From the NCBI RefSeq assembly GCF_020165855.1, contig NZ_JAIUFY010000007.1, positions 124,001 through 188,000 on the forward strand: a DNA stretch of 64,000 nt, written 5' to 3'. The notes below the pieces were generated by a model. That model was given only the letters and a program-made list of their open reading frames with translations, did not search any database and was not told the DNA's origin. Shown here in pieces: positions 5,798 to 64,000 of this stretch. A program made the translations under genes and the position numbers. This DNA comes from Celeribacter litoreus (GTDB lineage: Bacteria > Pseudomonadota > Alphaproteobacteria > Rhodobacterales > Rhodobacteraceae). Every line of letters starts with the position of its first letter. Positions within the stretch are counted from its first letter, which is position 1.

Positions 5798-7860
5798 GCC
5801 GGGCTCCTTTCAATGATCAGGTTCCCGAGCTCGTCCACCGTGGCGGTCCAGTCGGGCAGAATGATGGTCGTCGTTTCGGCCTGTTCGACGACGGCAGGGC
5901 CGGACAGGATCGCATCCTTGCCGAGCGTGGTCCGGTCGTAGACGGCGGCTTCGTGCCATGCACCCTTGTGGAAGATGTTCCGGCGGGTGCGAACGGGGGC
6001 GCCGTCACCCGTGGCTTTGGAGGCAGACAGCGGTTGCCCGACGCCGATCATGGCGAGCCGGATGGTGCCGATTTCGACCAGTGCCTCGGCATCGCGGAAG
6101 CCGTAGATGCGCTCGTGCTCCTGGTGGAAGGCTTCGGCGTAGCTCGCGGCATCTGCGCCCGCGTCCAAGGTCACGCGCAGCTCGTAGGCTTGCCCAGTAT
6201 AGCGCATATCGGCGGACCGTTCGACTCGGCGGTCCGCAATGTCCGGCAATTCGTTGTCCAGCCAGGCATCGCCTTCGGCCTGAAGTGCCACAAAGGTGCT
6301 TTCGGCGGCGGCTGCACTTTCTTCTGTGAGTTCAACGCGGAGAGAACGGACGAAATCGCGGCGGAGGTCCGCGCCTGCGGCGCCCATTGCGCAATAGGCA
6401 CCGGCGGCTTGCGGGACGAGAATGCGGGCGATGCCGATCTCTTCGGCCAACAGGTTGGCATGGGTTGGTCCCGCGCCACCGAAGGGCAGGAGCACGAAGT
6501 CACGGGGATCAAGCCCGCGTTCGGCCATCGTGCGGAAGAGCGAGCCAGCCATTTCCGCAGAGGCCACGGCGAGCGCGCCTTCAGCCAAACGGACAGCGCG
6601 GTCGTCGCCCTCGATGCCGACTTGCGTGGCGACCGTATCGAGCGCGGCGCGCGCAGCGTCGCCGTCGAGCGGCATCGAGCCACCGCCAAAGTTGGCCGGA
6701 TCAATGAAGCCGCACGCGATGAAGCAATCCGTCACGGCAGGTTCCGTTCCGCCGCGCCCGTAGGAGACGGGGCCGGGGTGGGCGCCGGCGCTGTGGGGGC
6801 CGACCTTGAGCACACCTTGGGCGTCGCCCCAGATGATAGACCCGCCGCCCGCACCAATGGCGTTCACGTCAACCACCGGCAGGACGAGCGGCAGCCCGCC
6901 AATGTCGGTGCGTGTCGCGATCCCTGCGGTGCCGCCGGTCGCGACGGCCATGTCGGAGGAGGTGCCGCCCATGTCGAAGGTGATGATGTTTTCCATGCCC
7001 GACTGGCTCGCCTGACGCACAGCAGCCATCACGCCGGAGGCCGGTCCCGACAGGATCGTTTCGACCGGACGCGCAACAGCGGACCCGACGGATAGAGAGC
7101 CACCATTCGAGGCGGTCACCAAGAGCGGCGCGTGCACGCCGATCCGTTCCAGCCCCGTCAAAAGGCGTGCGAAGTAGGTGTCCATCAGCGGCTGGATATA
7201 CGCATTGAGGCAGGCCACCAGCGTGCGTTCATATTCGCGGATTTCCGGCCAGATTGTTGCCGCAGAGGAGATCGCGAAGGACTCGAGCCGTGCGGAGAGG
7301 GCGGCGGCGATCTCACCTTCTGCTTCCGGATTTGCGTAGCCGTTGATGAGCATGAGTGCAGCCGCATCAAGGTTCAGCGCGGCCAGCTCACGCGCCACGC
7401 GGTCCAGCTCTGCCTCATCCGGTTCGGAGGTCAGTTTTCCGTTGCGGTCAAAGCGCGCATCGATCTCGATCACGCAGGATCGGGGGACCAGAGGCACTTC
7501 TTTCTCTGCGTGCAAATCGAACGAGGACGGCATCCGGCACCGCGCGATTTCGAGAATGTCGCGGTATCCCTTCGTGACGATCAGGCCGATACGGGCGCCG
7601 CGGCGCTGGATGATCGCGTTGAGGCCAATGGTCGTGCCGTGCATCAACCCGCCAACATCCTGAGGGGCCATGCCTTCACGGGCCAGAAATTTGTCCAGCC
7701 CTTCGATCAGCGCGCGTGACGGGTCGTCAGGGGTGGATGGCTCTTTGTAGAGCGTGATCTTGCCGGTTTCGGCGTCGGCCATCACAAAGTCCGTAAACGT
7801 CCCGCCGACATCAATGCCGATACGCAGTCGTCCGGTGGAACCCTGGGTGAAATCTTTCAT
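5794..7860 (-). CDS. hyuA: Hydantoinase A / 5-oxoprolinase-type ATP-binding subunit
   Basis: A 688-residue HyuA-family protein. The N-terminus RIGIDVGGTFTDFVMADAET is the actin-like ATP-binding phosphate loop of hydantoinase/oxoprolinase A subunits, and ITFDMGGTSSDMAVATGG further in is the second phosphate motif. With HyuB it should hydrolyse or carboxylate a cyclic amide or ketone using ATP in the cytoplasm. It follows the ATPase gene by 18 bases and overlaps hyuB by 4. Being inside an importer operon under a LacI regulator suggests a dedicated catabolic system for one imported compound. Members of this family differ in chemistry, so the reaction is not assigned. Confidence 0.94.
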   Translation of the reverse strand: MKDFTQGSTGRLRIGIDVGGTFTDFVMADAETGKITLYKEPSTPDDPSRALIEGLDKFLAREGMAPQDVGGLMHGTTIGLNAIIQRRGARIGLIVTKGYRDILEIARCRMPSSFDLHAEKEVPLVPRSCVIEIDARFDRNGKLTSEPDEAELDRVARELAALNLDAAALMLINGYANPEAEGEIAAALSARLESFAISSAATIWPEIREYERTLVACLNAYIQPLMDTYFARLLTGLERIGVHAPLLVTASNGGSLSVGSAVARPVETILSGPASGVMAAVRQASQSGMENIITFDMGGTSSDMAVATGGTAGIATRTDIGGLPLVLPVVDVNAIGAGGGSIIWGDAQGVLKVGPHSAGAHPGPVSYGRGGTEPAVTDCFIACGFIDPANFGGGSMPLDGDAARAALDTVATQVGIEGDDRAVRLAEGALAVASAEMAGSLFRTMAERGLDPRDFVLLPFGGAGPTHANLLAEEIGIARILVPQAAGAYCAMGAAGADLRRDFVRSLRVELTEESAAAAESTFVALQAEGDAWLDNELPDIADRRVERSADMRYTGQAYELRVTLDAGADAASYAEAFHQEHERIYGFRDAEALVEIGTIRLAMIGVGQPLSASKATGDGAPVRTRRNIFHKGAWHEAAVYDRTTLGKDAILSGPAVVEQAETTTIILPDWTATVDELGNLIIERSPA

Positions 7861-7878
7861 GTCTGTCTCCTGACCCGA

Positions 7879-8967
7879 TCAGTTCCGGGTGTCCTGAGGT
7901 GCCACGACGACGCCGTGTTCGACGGGCCAGCCCACGGGGACCCTGTCGCCCAACACAAGACTCGTTTGTCCCAACGATGCGTCGGCCTGACGGTAGGCGG
8001 TGAGCTCCACGTCGGTGCCATCGAGCGCAATACGATAGGCGGCATAGGAGCCGCGGAACGACGCCGCGACGATGCGGCCCATGAGACCTTGGCTCAGCGG
8101 GCCTGCGGCCTCGCCCAAGACGATCCGTTCGGGGCGCACAGAGAGGGTCGCGCGTGTGCCGGGGGTGGCTTTCGTCGGAAGTGTCAGCGTGCCGGCCTCT
8201 GTCTTCAGCATCCCGTCCGGCGTGACATCTCCGTCAAACAGGTTCGATGTGCCAAGGAAGGTCGCAACAAATGCCGTTTCCGGATGGTCGTAGATGTGGT
8301 TCGGCGCACCAAGTTGAAGAATTTTCCCGCCCTGCATCACGGCGATCTGGTCCGACATGGACATCGCTTCTTCCTGATCGTGCGTGACGAGGAGCGTGGT
8401 GATTTCCAGCCGCTGCTGCATTTCACGGATCTCGAATTGCATCGACTCTCGGAGGGCTTTGTCGAGCGCACCGAGCGGTTCATCCAGGAGCAGCACGCGT
8501 GGATTGACGACGAGGGCACGTGCCAATGCCACGCGTTGCTGCTGGCCGCCAGAGAGTTGGGAGGGGAACATCTCCTCGCGGCCTTGCAGATGGACCATGT
8601 CGAGCATACGCCGCACTTCGTCCAACTGCGTTTGTTTCGAAGCACCGAGCATCCGCAGCCCGAAGGCCACGTTTTCCGCCACGGTGCGATGCGGGAACAG
8701 GGAATAGCTCTGGAACACCATGCCAAGCCCGCGCTTGTTGGGCGGCAGGTGGGTCACGTCATCGTTGCCGATCCGGATTTCCCCGCTGTCGGGCGTCTCA
8801 AAGCCCGCGACCATGCGCAATGTCGTGGTTTTCCCGCAACCGGAGGGCCCGAGAAGCGACACGAGAGAACCGGGTTCGACCTGCAAATCGAGGTTGTCCA
8901 CGGCCAAGAGGTCCCCGAACCGCTTGCGGATTGTCGTGAGACTCAAGTTGGAAGGGGTGTCGTTCAT
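7879..8967 (-). CDS. ABC transporter ATP-binding protein, PotA-like
   Basis: A 362-residue ATPase subunit: Walker [10 protein letters not shown] (about residues 39-47), Q-loop in [13 protein letters not shown], signature [15 protein letters not shown], Walker [13 protein letters not shown] and switch histidine in [11 protein letters not shown]. The last 100 or so residues are a TOBE-type domain ([14 protein letters not shown] onward), usual for spermidine/iron/sugar importers. It is the first gene of the operon that runs to 1034, with CGGAG 5 bases before the ATG. Transcription is probably controlled at the palindrome 26 bases upstream, shared with the divergent LacI gene. Confidence 0.95.
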
Positions 8968-57825: not shown

Positions 57826-58221
57826 TTAGCTCAGCCCGACGAGCACGCGCAGCAGGTCGGATCGCCGAAGCATCCCGACGAACTGTTCACCATCGAGAAC
57901 CGGAAACACACGATGAGGATGGTTGAGAAAGGCTTCTGCGGCGGTGGTGATGTCTGCATTTGCCGAGAGCGTCATCACGTCCGACGTCATGAAATCCGCA
58001 ACTGTGCCTTTCCACTCCTGATAGTAACTCGCGTTCAGAGCCGGACGGAAACAGTCCTTCTGGCTCAGGATGCCTTGCAGCACGCCGCTCTCGTCCAGGA
58101 CGGCCCCCGCAGCGCCGCGTTCCTCAATGAGTACCGCCACGGCACGACGAATGGGCATGTCGGGTGTGAATACCGGCAGATCATCCCGCACGATATCTCT
58201 GAGTGTCTGAACAGGGCTCAT
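57826..58221 (-). CDS. Two-CBS-domain protein
   Basis: A 131-residue protein made of a CBS pair: first copy around DDLPVFTPDMPIRRAVAVLIEERGAAGAVLDESG, second around VMTLSANADITTAAEAFLNHPHRVFPVLDG. CBS pairs bind adenine nucleotides or NAD and tune partner proteins. The start MSPVQTLRDIVRDD overlaps the nqrM stop by 4 bases and has GGAGGAAAG in front, which is inside nqrM. Coupling to nqrM and apbE suggests a sensor of energy or redox state for the Na+-NQR system; this is inference. Confidence 0.9.
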   Translation of the reverse strand: MSPVQTLRDIVRDDLPVFTPDMPIRRAVAVLIEERGAAGAVLDESGVLQGILSQKDCFRPALNASYYQEWKGTVADFMTSDVMTLSANADITTAAEAFLNHPHRVFPVLDGEQFVGMLRRSDLLRVLVGLS

Positions 58222-58385
58222 CGGCTTTCCTCCCCGAGTTTGTGAGGACACCCTTCACAGGCGATATCTTTGAGACAGGCCATGCCGCCACAAGAGCCTT
58301 TCACCGGACCGCGCCCGAACAAAGACCCGAGGGCGAGCCCTCCGACGGCGAGGAGAATGATGACGAGGCCGAGGACAAGTTCCAT
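58218..58385 (-). CDS. nqrM: NqrM, Na+-NQR maturation (iron-delivery) protein
   Basis: A 55-residue protein. It opens MELVLGLVIILLAVGGLALG, one N-terminal membrane helix, and continues with a cysteine-rich tail GSCGGMACLKDIACEGCPH having Cys32, Cys37, Cys43 and Cys46. This is the NqrM (formerly DUF539) layout; the protein is needed to load the iron centre held by NqrD and NqrE. It lies 10 bases after apbE and overlaps the CBS gene by 4 bases, so it is translated within the NQR operon. Confidence 0.93.
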   Translation of the reverse strand: MELVLGLVIILLAVGGLALGSLFGRGPVKGSCGGMACLKDIACEGCPHKLGEESR

Positions 58386-58395
58386 ATCCGCGCCC

Positions 58396-59367
58396 TCAAA
58401 CCATATGGCGATCGAAATCGCCTGTCGTGGTCGCGGACAGCCCTGTGTCCGACGGATACAGGAACAGCGCCGACAGCCCGTTCTGACGCGCGAGTTCCGG
58501 CCCTTGCTCTCCGGCGGCCATCAATGCCGTGGCCCAACCGTCCGCGATCATGGCCTCCGGCGCGAGCACGGAAACCGAGATTGCCCCGCCCTCGACAGGC
58601 GTTGCGCGGCGCGGGTCGATGATGTGGCTGTAGACGTGGTCCCCAAGCGTATAGCTCTGCGCCCGAAGACCGGATGTGGCGACCGAAAAACCGGACGGGA
58701 GCCGTAGTCCTGCGGCGGGGCTGAGGGCTCCGACCCGCGGGTCCTCGACAGCCACTTGCCATGCACGACCCGACGGATGCTGCCCGCGGCTTTTCAACTC
58801 GCCACCCAAATCAATCAGGACATCCGAAAGTCCGGCCTGCATAAGATAGCTGTCCAAGAGATCGAGCGCGCGTCCCTTCGCGATGCCGCACAGATCAAGG
58901 GTCAGCCCCGAGATCTCCTTGCGCAATTGATCGCCTTCTGTTGCGATGCCAGCCCACGTTCCGGACGTGCCGCCCGTGATCCGGCCAAACCCCCATTGCG
59001 CGACCAAGGGGCCAACCGTGGGATCAAACCGGCCACCGCTGTCGCGCGCGATCTCCAATGCTGCGCGGGTCACAAGGGCCGTCTCATCAGACACACGGCA
59101 GGTATCGGTGCTTCGGTTGAAACGGGACACATCGCTGTCCTCGCGCCATGGCGACATCTGGGCGTCCACCTCGGCCAAGAGACGGTCGATGGCGGCGCGA
59201 TGCGGCTCAAGCGGCACATCAGAGGGCGCGGTCACGCGCCAATGGCTCGCGAAAGCGCGGCCCTCCATGCTGTGCGTCGGAGAAAGACTGCCTGCCTGTG
59301 CCATGCCAGCGCAAAGCGTGGCGCCGCTGAGGGCAATCATCTGACGGCGGGTAAAATCATGGCGCAT
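58396..59367 (-). CDS. apbE: FAD:protein FMN transferase
   Basis: A 323-residue ApbE. The N-terminus HDFTRRQMIALSGATLCAG carries a twin-arginine motif and hydrophobic core, so it is exported. The mature part shows MSPWREDSDVSRFNRS, GRFDPTVGPLVAQWGFG, DLGGELKSRG and IIDPRRATPVEGG with ADGWATALMAAG, covering the FAD and Mg2+ site. It attaches FMN through phosphoester bonds to threonines in S/T-GAT motifs, here NqrC (Thr235). It follows nqrF by 3 bases. NqrB in this cluster has no such motif, so NqrC is its only visible target here. Confidence 0.94.
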   Translation of the reverse strand: MRHDFTRRQMIALSGATLCAGMAQAGSLSPTHSMEGRAFASHWRVTAPSDVPLEPHRAAIDRLLAEVDAQMSPWREDSDVSRFNRSTDTCRVSDETALVTRAALEIARDSGGRFDPTVGPLVAQWGFGRITGGTSGTWAGIATEGDQLRKEISGLTLDLCGIAKGRALDLLDSYLMQAGLSDVLIDLGGELKSRGQHPSGRAWQVAVEDPRVGALSPAAGLRLPSGFSVATSGLRAQSYTLGDHVYSHIIDPRRATPVEGGAISVSVLAPEAMIADGWATALMAAGEQGPELARQNGLSALFLYPSDTGLSATTTGDFDRHMV

Positions 59368-59370
59368 GGG

Positions 59371-60591
59371 TCAGCCTCCGAAGTCATCATTGTAGATGGA
59401 ATCTGGTTCCACGCCCAGCTTGGCGAGCGTGTTGAGGACCGCCGAGATCATGACCGGCGGACCACAGAGATAATATTCGCAATTCTCGGGTGCGGGATGT
59501 TTAGACATCGCGGCACGCACGGTGTCGTGGATAAATCCGGTTTCGCCGCGCCACCTGTCCCCCGGTGCAGGGTCGGACAGGGCGGGGGTCCATGCAAAGT
59601 TGGGGTGCTCTTTGGCGATGGCTTCGAATTCCTCGACGTAGAAAAGGTCCGCCGCCGAGCGCGCGCCGTAGAAATAACGCATGCTGCGCGTCGTACCCTT
59701 GCCGATCTGTTCGTGGATCATGGCCCGCAGAGGCGCCATCCCAACGCCGCCACCGATAAAGACCATGTCGCGTTCTGTGGGCTGGACATGGAACTCTCCG
59801 AACGGCCCCGACGCGGCCACTTCGTCGCCCGGTTTCAGGGAAAAGAGCCACGACGACACCGCTCCCGGCGCGATGTCATGCTCTTTGCCTGCGGGCGGCA
59901 CGGCGAGGCGGATGTTGAACACCGCCTGTCCGACATTGGCGGGGGTGTTGGCGATGGAATAGGCGCGTGTAACCGGCTGATCGGAAGAGGCCGTCATCGT
60001 CGGCCAATCGGCGAGGTCCCATGTCTGGGCAAAGGCCGGATCTACGTCGATATCTGCGAAGTCGAGCCGGTAGGCCGGCGCGGTCAACTGCATGAAGCCA
60101 CCAGCACGGAAGGAAAACGGCTGCTCTGCCGGCAGTTCGAGAACCAGTTCCCTGATGAGAGGGGCAAGCTGTCTGTTGGACACAACGCGGCATGTAAATC
60201 CGGTCGCTCCGAGGAACTCTTGTGGCACCGTCACTTGGCATGGGCCGCGCAGGGTTGTCTGGCAGGCCAGTCTGACATGGGCCTTGCGCTCTGCCGCAGA
60301 AAGAATCCCTTTCTCCGTCGCGATCGCGGTGCCCGCGCCCTCCCCGTTCACAACGACACGGCACAGCCCGCAGGTGCCCGATCCGCCACAGGCCGCCGGA
60401 ATACCGATGCCGGAGCGGTGCAGAACGCCCAAGAGCTTTTCGCCGCGCTGCACATCGAGCTTTTCGGTGTCGTTCACCGTGATCTGAAGTGCTTCAGCAG
60501 GCACAAGCTTTTGCCGCGTCAAAAGCAGGACAACGGTCAGCGCAATGACCAGCCCGATGATGATGATGGCTCCGAGAACAATCTCCGTCAT
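59371..60591 (-). CDS. nqrF: Na+-translocating NADH:quinone reductase subunit F
   Basis: A 406-residue NADH-oxidising subunit: N-terminal membrane helix (residues about 5-25), a ferredoxin domain with 2Fe-2S cysteines Cys68, Cys74, Cys77 ([14 protein letters not shown]) and Cys110 (LACQTT), then FAD domain ([14 protein letters not shown]) and NADH domain ([15 protein letters not shown]) ending YNDDFGG. It passes electrons from NADH to the rest of the complex. Overlaps nqrE by 4 bases. Confidence 0.97.
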
Positions 60592-61199
60592 GACGCCACC
60601 ATCTGTGCAAAGGCGGAAAAGCCGAGGGACATCATTCCGGCGAGGATGAAGGTGATGCCCAACCCACGCAGCCCTTCAGGGATGTGCGCATAGGCGAGGC
60701 GCGCGCGGATCGCGCCGAGCATGATGACAGAGACAGCAAAACCTGTGCCCGCCCCGAGACCGAAAACGGTGGACTCGGCCAGCGTATAGCTGCGCTCGAC
60801 CATAAAGAGGCTGCCTGCGAGGATGGCGCATTGCACGGTCAGAAGCGGCAGAAAGACCCCGAAAGAGGCGTAGATAGCAGGGAAAAAGCGATCCAGAACC
60901 ATTTCGAGCAACTGAACCGTGGCCGCGATGACGCCGATAAAGGCAATCAGTTTGAGATAGGACAGATCCGTCTCCGGCAGGCCCGCCCATGCCCACGCGC
61001 CGGGCGCGAGGAGCGCGGTGTAGATCAGATGATTGAGCGGCACGGTAACCCCCATGACCGCAACCACGGCGATCCCGAGGCCCGCGGCAGAGCCGGTTTT
61101 TCGCGACAGCGCGATGAAAGTGCAGAGGCCCAAAAACAGGGTGAGCGGCATGTTCTCCACAAAGGCCGCGCTCAGGAACAGAGAGACAAGATCATTCAT
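60588..61199 (-). CDS. nqrE: Na+-translocating NADH:quinone reductase subunit E
   Basis: A 203-residue membrane subunit with six helices. Cys26 ([11 protein letters not shown]) and Cys124 ([11 protein letters not shown]) occupy the positions that hold the intramembrane iron centre shared with NqrD. It overlaps nqrD and nqrF by 4 bases on each side. Confidence 0.97.
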
Positions 61200-61861
61200 G
61201 ACAGGTCCTCCGGTTTGTCCGGCGACAACAGATCAATGGTTTCCGCCTGTGCGGGTAGGAGGGTGCGAATGGCCCAGACCAATCCGCCCAGCAGAAAGAA
61301 CGCAGACGGCGCCAAGAGCATCAGGTTAAGGGGCGTATACCACCCGCCCTGATCGACCGTTTGAAAGACCTGAACCCCGAGCAGCGATCCGGCCCCGAAG
61401 AGTTCCCGAACCGATCCGATCACGACCAGAACGACGGAATACCCAAGCCCGTTGCCCAAAGCGTCCACCATCGACCGCCCCGGCGGGTTGTGGCGGGAAA
61501 AGGACTCCGTGCGTCCGAGCACGAGACAGTTCGTGGTGATCAGGCTGACAAAGACCGACAATTTTTGGCTGATCTCGAACAGATAGGCCTGAAGGATCTG
61601 GTCGATCACGATCACAAGCGAGGCCACGATCACGATCTGGACGATCAGGCGGATCGAGCCGGGAATGTGGTTGCGGATCAGGCTGATGAGACCGGCGGAC
61701 ATCACGAGGACCGCCGTGAGTGCGGCCGACATGGTGAGAGCCGTCGCGACAGAGGTCGTCACCGCCAATGCGGAACAAATCCCGAGAATTTGCAGGGTCA
61801 CGGGATTCTGGTGGACCAACGGGTCTGTCAGGGTGTTCCAGAGACTTGCGCGGGCGGGCAT
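61196..61861 (-). CDS. nqrD: Na+-translocating NADH:quinone reductase subunit D
   Basis: A 221-residue membrane subunit, inverted-topology partner of NqrE. Cys29 ([10 protein letters not shown]) and Cys112 ([11 protein letters not shown]) match the iron ligands of characterised NqrD. Other family stretches are [20 protein letters not shown] and [15 protein letters not shown]. Three bases separate it from nqrC. Confidence 0.97.
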
Positions 61862-61864
61862 GGG

Positions 61865-62665
61865 TCAGAACTCCCCACGCTGGATGGCGTCGATCAGAGG
61901 GCCGTATCCATCGGGGCCGAGCCAGAAACGCATGATCCGCGTCACGGCGCTTGAGGTGCGCGTCGCCCCTGTGATCCCGTCAACCTCGAACTCGCTGCTC
62001 GCGCGTCCTTTGGCGACGGCAAAACGCACAGCGCCGCTTGCGTCCGCGATCTCTTTCCCGCGCCATTGCGAAAGCCACGCAGGTTCCTCGATGCGTCCGC
62101 CCAGACCGGGGGTCTCGGCTTGGGCCAAGACGGCCAGACCCGCGATGGTGTTCATGTCCGCCCTGAGCGCGAGAATGGCATCAATCGGGGCGACATAGCC
62201 TGCCCCGCTGATCGGCAGCAGCGCGAGTGAAATTTCGCCGTCCGCCCCGCGCAGGAAGTAGATCTGCGCGTAGTTCGGGCGCTGCCCGAGACCGGCGAGG
62301 TCCTGCCCTTCGGAGAGACCCGTCCAGTTCGCATTGTCCTCCAGCGCAGCGGAGAGAGTGGCGGGCGTGACGTCAGTCGCGGCTCTTCCTTCGGTCAGAT
62401 CGACAACGACGGTGGAGAGAGAGCCGCCCTCCGCGGCCATCAGTTCAGACATGCCTGGGATGCCCGCGATCAGCCCCTCAAGACGCGCCTGTTGTTCGGC
62501 GGCACGGTTGGCGGCTTGGATCGGGCGCAGGATCACGGTCGCCCCGCTGACCCCGAGGGCACAGATGGCCGAGACCAGAAACGCCATGACCAAGGTCTTG
62601 GTCCGGCTTTCGTTCGGCAGAGCGAGGAGTTTCCGCCACGCGGTGATCGGGTTCATGTCAGCCAT
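61865..62665 (-). CDS. nqrC: Na+-translocating NADH:quinone reductase subunit C
   Basis: A 266-residue periplasm-facing subunit with one N-terminal helix (about residues 24-45). The covalent FMN site is present: DGITGATRTSSAVTRI, with Thr235 as acceptor. AETPGLGGRIEE (about 183-194) is the second conserved FMN-domain motif. Length is close to the norm. It overlaps nqrB by 8 bases. Confidence 0.96.
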   Translation of the reverse strand: MADMNPITAWRKLLALPNESRTKTLVMAFLVSAICALGVSGATVILRPIQAANRAAEQQARLEGLIAGIPGMSELMAAEGGSLSTVVVDLTEGRAATDVTPATLSAALEDNANWTGLSEGQDLAGLGQRPNYAQIYFLRGADGEISLALLPISGAGYVAPIDAILALRADMNTIAGLAVLAQAETPGLGGRIEEPAWLSQWRGKEIADASGAVRFAVAKGRASSEFEVDGITGATRTSSAVTRIMRFWLGPDGYGPLIDAIQRGEF

Positions 62666-63437
62666 GACGTTTTCTCCTTTGCCTTACCCAGAGAGCGAGC
62701 GCGGCCTCGTCGAAGAGTGGCGCGAACAAAGATGCGAGGAATGCGGCCGAGACAGTCATTTGCACCGGTGCGGCCCCCTGCCATTCATGAGCGAAGAGGA
62801 CTACAAATCCCCCATAGACCGCCCCGTAAAGCCAACGGCCGAGGGAGGTCGAGGCGCCCGCGACCGGATCGGTGACGAGGAGCGCCAACACCAAAACAGC
62901 GGCGGGCAAGATTGCTGAAATCGCAGGATCGCCGCCGGAATACGCGATCCCGAGGACCGCAAAGGCCGCGATAATGACGCGCATAGACAGAATGCCGAAC
63001 AGTGCGCCAATCGCCAACGCAGGCAGCGCCGCCCAAAAGACGGGTGCAACGAAATCAGGCCACGGTGCCGCCGGAAAACCAAAGCCCAGAAAGGCAATCG
63101 TAACAGTGGCCGGATTGAGTACATTGCGCCCCCAGCCTCCAAACACCAATTCGGCCATGACCGTGCCGAAACTGACGCCGAGGGCCAACCGGATCAGACC
63201 CAAATCTTCGGGCGCGATCATGGCGACTGCGATTGCGGACAGCACACCGGCCAGAGAAGGCGATTGTGCCCGCGCCAGCATAAAGACCATGTGCCAGACG
63301 CCGGATATGATCAGAGTGAGGCTGAGTCGCCCAATCGCATCAAGGCCCCCGAACCAGAGCCACGTCAGCACCATCGGCATAAGCGCCAAGAGCAAGAGTG
63401 CTGCGACCATCTCGCGATCCCACATCCCGCGCCTCAT
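62658..63437 (-). CDS. nqrB: Short NqrB-type subunit lacking the covalent-FMN segment
   Basis: A 259-residue NqrB/RnfD-family membrane protein, against about 410 residues for well-known NqrB. The core is recognisable: LALGVSFGTVMAELVFGGWG, RNVLNPATVTIAFLGFGFP (104-122), LVTDPVAGASTSLGRWLYGA and a C-terminal LFAPLFDEAAL. The soluble N-terminal part of NqrB is missing, and the DG.SGAT.L segment that should follow the NPA helix, holding the FMN-bearing threonine, is absent: residues 120-150 read straight into the next helix. The start is fixed by a 4-base overlap with nqrA (ATGA), so it is not a broken frame. Confidence 0.88.
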   Translation of the reverse strand: MRRGMWDREMVAALLLLALMPMVLTWLWFGGLDAIGRLSLTLIISGVWHMVFMLARAQSPSLAGVLSAIAVAMIAPEDLGLIRLALGVSFGTVMAELVFGGWGRNVLNPATVTIAFLGFGFPAAPWPDFVAPVFWAALPALAIGALFGILSMRVIIAAFAVLGIAYSGGDPAISAILPAAVLVLALLVTDPVAGASTSLGRWLYGAVYGGFVVLFAHEWQGAAPVQMTVSAAFLASLFAPLFDEAALALWVRQRRKRHG

Positions 63438-64000
63438 GCGACACCTTCCTCTTCTTCAATGCGGTCCAGAAGCGCCCGCAGTTGGGTCATGAGACGCGGC
63501 GATGCGCCCGTCGCATAATCCGCCAGCGCGACATCCTCTTCCAACAGAGACAGACCGCCTAGACGGGTGAAGCCCTCAACATCGCCGGACGCCAAGATAC
63601 GGATCAGCGCAGCGGAGGGGAGCGCGCGCCCGAACGCGAGATCGAGCGCGGCTGTTGGAATGATCGGCGCGCGTCGCGACACATGATCGAGCGCCTCGTT
63701 GAACCAGTGACGGTTCTTCGTGGACGTGTCGCGCGTGAGCACCGTGACTTGCCGATCCCTGTGCGACAACCAATGCGCGGGCCGCCCGTCCAGAAACGAG
63801 CCGGACAAGACCGCATGCGGTCCGGGGCGCAGAAGCGACTGGCTCAACCCGCGCAGGTCCGCGCCCGGCTGGCACTGAACCAGTTTCGCCTCTCTGAGCG
63901 CATCGCCCGAAATAGAGACCACACGCGTCGCGGGCACATAGCCCGTCTCCAGAAAGGAACCGATATCCGCGACATCTTTCGCATGGATATCCCAGACAGG
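63434..64000 (-). CDS. nqrA: Na+-translocating NADH:quinone reductase subunit A, C-terminal part
   Basis: The final 188 codons of nqrA; the start lies right of the window. The visible frame runs from the window edge with PVWDIHAKDVADIGSFLETG, matching the NqrA pattern VW.I..QDV.AIG..F.TG, then VVSISGDALREAKLV, LSHRDRQVTVL and a C-terminal EGFTRLGGLSLLEEDVALADYA. NqrA is a cytoplasmic subunit contacting quinone. It is the first gene of the operon, overlapping nqrB by 4 bases. Confidence 0.95.
   Translation of the reverse strand, partial: PVWDIHAKDVADIGSFLETGYVPATRVVSISGDALREAKLVQCQPGADLRGLSQSLLRPGPHAVLSGSFLDGRPAHWLSHRDRQVTVLTRDTSTKNRHWFNEALDHVSRRAPIIPTAALDLAFGRALPSAALIRILASGDVEGFTRLGGLSLLEEDVALADYATGASPRLMTQLRALLDRIEEEEGVA

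Follow-up and report, generated by a model that had tools for sequence, protein, structure and literature searches.

A short NqrB without the covalent-FMN loop in a conserved six-subunit NQR encoded head to head with a pentaheme cytochrome

In the Na+-NQR of Vibrio the FMN of NqrC lies 5.7 Å from that of NqrB (PMC10643135), which in turn is ~8 Å from the riboflavin (PMC12174285). Two models describe the path of sodium, one leading through NqrB, opened by reduced FMN and gated by Phe338 and Phe342 (PMC10643135), the other through the RnfA/E (NqrE/D) pair with RnfD serving only as an electron carrier (PMC11889175). In Methanosarcina acetivorans it has been proposed that the covalent flavin of RnfG passes its electrons to MmcA, a co-encoded multiheme cytochrome, and RnfD is reported to carry a potential flavin motif, SGTF (PMC4023990, PMC11024163). 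Two-subunit Nqr/Rnf-like complexes possess an NqrB-like domain without a flavinylation site, and outward electron transfer has been proposed for them (PMC11334425). Methanosarcina Rnf-MmcA and the two-subunit complexes are the closest precedents of the short NQR described here.

The short NQR has the same six subunits as the Na+-NQR of Vibrio cholerae, and the NqrD/E cysteines, the flavin threonine of NqrC and the NqrF motifs are common to both. It differs in lacking the FMN site of NqrB and the N-terminal quinone helices, in its changed quinone contacts, and in the addition of a CBS gene and a head-to-head multiheme cytochrome. With the Methanosarcina system it shares a redox-driven ion-pump core and a co-encoded multiheme cytochrome, although that system is an archaeal Rnf fed by ferredoxin, and its heptaheme MmcA is compared with the pentaheme protein as an analogue. 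The two-subunit complexes carry a fused NAD domain, whereas here NqrB is unfused and all six subunits are present. Nor were the RNF subunits RnfC and RnfB recognised, the NqrA of the window genome having two cysteines and, by eye, no cluster motif, and NqrF taking the place of RnfB. No six-subunit NQR with a short NqrB or with a pentaheme cytochrome was found among titles and abstract openings of the open-access literature, and one of the short-NqrB kind is not described in the accessible parts of PMC4014512, PMC8238504, PMC11334425, PMC12174285 and PMC11889175. To judge from these titles and abstracts, the association of an NQR with a multiheme cytochrome would be new.

The window, the whole stretch of 64,000 nucleotides analysed, contains the gene set nqrA to nqrF in an operon with the order nqrA-B-C-D-E-F-apbE-nqrM-CBS, which occupies positions 57826 to 64000 and is transcribed from the minus strand. 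The 3' part of nqrA (63434..64000) is cut by the window end, the whole gene of 427 aa lying at 7435-8718 of the contig stretch L003. It is followed by nqrB (62658..63437), nqrC (61865..62665), which bears the flavinylation motif DGITGAT with Thr235, nqrD (61196..61861; Cys29, Cys112), nqrE (60588..61199; Cys26, Cys124) and nqrF (59371..60591), with its 2Fe-2S, FAD and NAD-binding motifs. The NCBIfam equivalog cut-offs were passed by nqrD, nqrE and nqrF and not by nqrB, nqrC or the nqrA fragment. Downstream lie apbE for the FAD:protein FMN transferase (58396..59367) and nqrM for the NQR maturation protein (58218..58385; 55 aa), the latter matching PF04400 with 23.2 bits at a cut-off of 22, so that both accessory genes named in the sequence-only reading of this DNA are present. 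A CBS-pair protein (57826..58251) is the conserved last gene of the short-NQR operon. Just outside the window, at 8841-10025 of L003 (188840-190024 of contig C14, which would be 64840-66024 in window numbering), a gene encodes a cytochrome with five CxxCH motifs. We interpret the whole as a six-subunit NQR of a distinct kind, whose usual U-shaped electron path would have lost its NqrB leg, with electrons leaving at NqrC to the pentaheme cytochrome, a reading to which we give a probability of about 0.62.

The sequence-only reading had described NqrB as a protein of 259 residues without the DG.SGAT.L stretch of the FMN threonine and without its N-terminal region, and had suggested an alignment with NqrB and RnfD. 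The ORF is indeed complete, and the description is borne out. The protein matches the nqrB model in two pieces with 83 bits, compared with an equivalog cut-off of 350. Numbered by the NqrB of Vibrio campbellii (Vc), with the FMN threonine set to 236, an alignment with full-length NqrB and RnfD leaves Vc 1-46, 78-126, 218-265 and 312-321 absent from the window protein. On our reading of the helices in the alignment, the 78-126 gap falls between TM1 and TM2 and the 218-265 gap, which includes Thr236, between TM5 and TM6. Relatives were drawn from a related-locus search (32 loci) and from 36 short-form genomes in a sweep across the family (295 genomes), giving 63 short loci after removal of five duplicates; G202, in which the loop region is cut, was counted as a short form from its operon. 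The columns of Vc 218-265 hold 6 letters in 62 of the 63 unique short NqrBs, 48 letters in all 31 full-length alphaproteobacterial NqrBs and 73-80 in five RnfD sequences. The 63rd locus, L115, ends at a contig end before this region, and the SGAT loop is therefore absent from 62/62 short NqrBs that cover it.

The window frame opens only 6 codons upstream of the start and measures 265 codons from stop to stop; judged by this frame, the N-terminus is certainly missing. Three annotated plasmid copies of 258-259 codons agree with the window N-terminus, while the starts of the other relatives were trimmed by hand in the alignment. A frameshift, an assembly gap or a wrong start, the first of which the sequence-only reading had named as a possible refutation together with a missing segment, can be ruled out: the short frame is seen at 63 loci, and that of the window spans no more than the 265 codons between its stops. 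An AlphaFold2 model built with 31 sequences has ten helices at a mean pLDDT of 89.2, and Foldseek placed Vibrio NqrB first (E 2e-8, TM 0.79 by query), followed by RnfD. From the model and this ranking the membrane core of NqrB looks whole, the lost pieces being mainly loops and the N-terminus.

A search for an S/T-GAT acceptor elsewhere in NqrB, which would also have contradicted the earlier description, returned nothing but a stray TGAT in one of the 63 proteins (L122). The claim of one covalent flavin site fewer is supported. The same type of motif occurs in NqrC in 62/63 loci, in NqrA in 3/61, in ApbE in 8/55 and in the cytochrome in 3/23, and in none of the NqrD (0/63), NqrE (0/61) or CBS (0/59) proteins. 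It is also found in 32/62 NqrFs, in 28 of these as DRWTGAT. This was set aside as a replacement FMN acceptor because the NqrF domain that bears it is cytosolic and ApbE works outside.

The window and almost all of its relatives keep the cofactor residues of NqrC, NqrD, NqrE and NqrF, as the sequence-only reading had noted for the window itself. The four 2Fe-2S cysteines of NqrF are present in 62/62 short-NQR loci, and the FAD and NADH motifs are also kept; Cys29 of NqrD is found in 62/63 and Cys112 in 63/63, and Cys26 and Cys124 of NqrE are both kept in 61/61. The acceptor of the covalent FMN in NqrC is threonine in 62 of 63 short loci and serine in one. Also retained are Asp133 of NqrD (62/62 letters) and Glu99 of NqrE (61/61), by motif the counterpart of Vc Glu95, D133 and E95 being the Vibrio numbers. 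That the enzyme is otherwise a standard NQR holds for nqrA-F and for the cofactor residues of NqrC, NqrD, NqrE and NqrF; it does not hold for the added CBS and pentaheme genes or for the N-terminal helices and most of the quinone contacts, which are gone.

For residue counts in NqrB the 63 loci were split by hand into group A (n = 45, including the window) and group B (n = 18). The riboflavin ligands are named as T162, N200, N203 and D346 (PMC9325719). N200 is conserved in 44/44 group-A letters, N203 in 37/44 and D346 in 43/45; the corresponding figures for group B are 3/18, 7/18 and 17/18. The ligands are thus retained in the majority of loci, the window among them, and eroded at N200 and N203 in group B. 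The D346 position is glutamate in 31/31 full-length alphaproteobacterial NqrBs (L009-L017, L063-L088) and aspartate in 60 of the 63 short forms. Contacts of NqrB to the quinone, among them G141 and F159, are given in PMC10643135. At F159 glycine or alanine is seen in 54 of 61 letters, the change occurring in both groups, and E157 is kept in none of the 44 group-A letters; G141 is retained in 35 group-A loci, including the window, and in a single group-B locus. The helices AH-I and AH-II of the ubiquinone site are absent from the window protein, and the quinone contacts are mostly lost. Vc D397 is kept in 63/63 short loci. At the gate positions F338 and F342 most group-A loci have Leu, Ile or Val, and most of group B has Phe.

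These residues bear on whether a quinone is still reduced, NqrC docking deeper so that its FMN feeds the riboflavin of NqrB and the quinone reacts at a rearranged site. This explanation, which is close to the sequence-only reading, would account for the riboflavin ligands of group A, for D397 and for the ten helices retained in the model, and two-subunit complexes without the threonine have been modelled with an NqrC-like flavin beside a non-covalent one (PMC11334425). It is harder to reconcile with the missing N-terminal helices of the window protein, with the quinone contacts changed across the set and with the eroded riboflavin ligands of group B, and it leaves the conserved cytochrome unexplained; overall we regard it as unlikely.

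In a tree with full-length alphaproteobacterial NqrB and RnfD the short NqrBs, of which 60 were included and three (L092, L115 and L123) left out, form one clade; the view of a natural slimmed NqrB is supported. Group A falls in one branch and group B is a grade, with L110 and L118 on the group-A side; the earliest branches are L097, L106 and L091. In a separate alignment the window protein is 53-89% identical to 30 relatives, with 48 invariant columns listed. This identity and the intact cofactor residues of the other subunits argue strongly against the idea that NqrB is decaying and that the complex is a leftover no longer serving respiration, which seems very improbable even though one operon of the sample is visibly broken (G032, locus L092). 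There the nqrA, nqrC and nqrF frames are interrupted, and a cytochrome fragment with two CxxCH motifs is seen.

The mean NqrC tree distance of the short forms is 2.88 to alphaproteobacterial full-length forms and 2.97 to other full-length forms, these two being 1.59 apart (up to 12 rows per group). The split of the short rows was recovered in trees of NqrB (0.80), NqrC (1.0), NqrD (0.91) and NqrF (1.0) and not in those of NqrA and NqrE. Taken together, the NqrC distances and these four trees weakly disfavour a recent loss within the alphaproteobacterial NQR.

In the family sweep 83 of 295 genomes match PF03116. One contiguous match was found in 45 of them, four being RnfD loci (L059-L062), and the short form in 36, with G142 and G168 belonging to both sets; in G023, G036, G097 and G237 the match is to something else, with no nqr gene around. 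The short NQR is therefore not rare in the family. Relatives G004, G016, G142 and G168 carry both short and full-length NqrB, while in the window genome the short NqrB is the sole PF03116 protein found and no second, full-length NqrB was detected. The same genome also has a Complex1_49kDa match of 395 bits and may therefore possess a further NADH dehydrogenase besides the short NQR. In wider samples, strong single hits spanning most of the short profile, judged from coverage and E-value, came only from the same family, in 2/385 genomes of a class sample and, among the matches listed, in 5/398 of a phylum sample. Copies with 98-100% coverage of the query are present in four plasmid records, and short-NQR loci were also found in Nitratireductor, Shinella and a Mesorhizobium MAG, which points to spread by transfer.

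Clustering of the flanking ORFs brought out, next to nqrA, a cytochrome whose N-terminus is signal-like and which carries five CxxCH motifs. Its gene lies head to head with nqrA, ~120 bases away in the window genome, and a five-CxxCH ORF is so arranged at 58 of the 63 short loci (57 within the fetched stretch; in G202 the ORF is on the contig bearing the 5' part of nqrA). The five exceptions are L092; L123, which is cut by its contig and whose genome (G288) gave no cytochrome match; and three early-branching loci. At L091 (1-1522) a 117-aa tetraheme cytochrome is found instead, with fragments of an FAD_binding_2 flavoprotein, their frames interrupted, beyond it, L106 (1367-2788) faces an EB_dh heme protein, and L097 has no cytochrome-like neighbour, its genome (G079) also lacking the pentaheme protein. 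At full-length NQR loci (13 sweep genomes with G004 and G016) apbE occupies this place in 15/15 fetched, and within the ~0.5-1.3 kb covered upstream of nqrA none of the 15 shows an ORF that bears more than one CxxCH motif. Likewise, no strong CBS match was obtained at these 15 loci; L179 gave a weak one and L166 is cut early.

A cytochrome profile built from the short-NQR loci matched 46 of the 295 genomes, 32/36 with a short NQR compared with 14/259 without (Fisher p 1.6e-27, related genomes being counted as independent). The short-NQR genomes without it are G079, G031, G151 and G288, and two of the 14 cytochrome-only genomes have a full-length NQR. In the window genome the cytochrome matches Cytochrome_C7 in Pfam and, partially and above the cut-off, NrfA-type cytochromes; for the L029 copy this second match falls below the cut-off. 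The structure model is weak (pLDDT 69) and gave no significant fold match, OcwA and NrfHA being the best, so a kinship to NrfA/OTR rests on the partial Pfam match.

Outside the short NQR the cytochrome was found at 15 loci, from the 14 genomes and a second copy in G090. At 11 of these it stands head to head with an ORF matching the NqrF profile (L185, L186, L187, L188, L190, L192, L193, L194, L195, L197, L199). All four partners scanned (L185, L186, L188, L194) combine Ferric_reduct, FAD_binding_8 and NAD_binding_1, the make-up of ferric-reductase-like NAD(P)H oxidoreductases, which as a rule pass electrons outward. They differ from the short NQR in having an unrelated membrane domain, Ferric_reduct, within a single protein, and in that no ion-pump subunits are seen beside them. 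At L198 the cytochrome is accompanied by a nonaheme protein and b561, and no partner was seen in L189, L191 and L196. We take this swap of partners as the strongest hint as to function, with the same cytochrome served by two unrelated membrane devices that both oxidise NAD(P)H inside. It also speaks against reverse running, in which a periplasmic donor would pass electrons through the cytochrome into the complex and the Na+ gradient would push them onto NAD+. The same genes and linkage would be expected for this direction, RNF can run in reverse (PMC12174285, PMC11889175), and the partial NrfA-type match would fit; the nature of the alternative partner nevertheless makes it distinctly improbable.

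In the forward reading that we prefer, NqrF would oxidise NADH in the cytosol. The membrane 2Fe-2S cluster lying between NqrD and NqrE would receive the electrons next, and after it the covalent FMN of NqrC, on the periplasmic side. From NqrC they would leave to the secreted pentaheme c-type cytochrome, in place of the usual route through the FMN of NqrB and riboflavin to ubiquinone. NqrB would be kept as a ten-helix scaffold whose shorter loops may leave space for NqrC and the cytochrome. With the middle flavin removed, a gap would remain that needs a large movement to close unless electrons leave earlier, and the partner swap, the changed quinone site and the Rnf-MmcA and two-subunit analogues all fit a hand-over from NqrC to the cytochrome. 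Beyond what the sequences and the linkage show, we infer here the direction of flow and point of exit, a docking of the cytochrome to NqrC, the export of Na+ and the eventual electron acceptor. The sequence-only reading had proposed one flavin fewer or a rearranged path. A change of path is indeed favoured, but the lost N-terminal helices and quinone contacts, the different operon and the facing cytochrome make exit to the periplasm more likely than a shortcut to the quinone. The main fact against exit to the cytochrome is the retention of the group-A riboflavin ligands, which suggests that NqrB still holds a working flavin. The kept G141, the four short-NQR genomes without cytochrome, the 14 genomes with cytochrome and no short NQR, and the 4/15 such loci where no NqrF-like partner was seen also count against it.

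Should sodium be pumped as the alternating NqrD/E model has it, the enzyme could still export Na+. The more specific proposal of a Na+-exporting, quinone-independent NADH:periplasmic-cytochrome oxidoreductase, made from NQR by removal of the NqrB flavin leg, is tentative, and we hold it at slightly less than even odds. If it is true and Na+ is pumped, pumping would need only the NqrD/E-NqrC half. In this lineage the FMN site of NqrB has been deleted naturally and the D/E/C half is intact, and Na+ pumping by it would bear on both models and on the dispute between NqrB and NqrD/E as the sodium path. An ORF cluster of Na+/H+-exchanger type, one copy of which was identified by Pfam, occurs in the flanks of 16/63 loci and would fit a sodium cycle, though only as a weak hint.

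The five plasmid copies with the best coverage (H1-H5) are annotated as 'RnfABCDGE type electron transport complex subunit D', a label that hides the short NQR. On plasmid pAMI8 of Paracoccus aminophilus (L203) an nqrABC fragment with a 259-codon NqrB is followed by a recombinase and a Tn3 transposase, and a truncated hemoglobin, a VIT1-type transporter and a P-type ATPase lie upstream. In a plasmid of Nitratireductor sp. OM-1 the short-NQR apbE is annotated as two adjacent pieces (L202, 13062-14038). Orphan NqrB/RnfD-like proteins of ~300 aa, if the frame is complete, are encoded in L090 (640-1539), L093 (6524-7444), L101 (6504-7592) and L119 (3-395, cut by the contig), with no other nqr gene found around them. 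In L090 and L119 the orphan is followed by a secreted-looking protein, which presumably resembles DUF2330.
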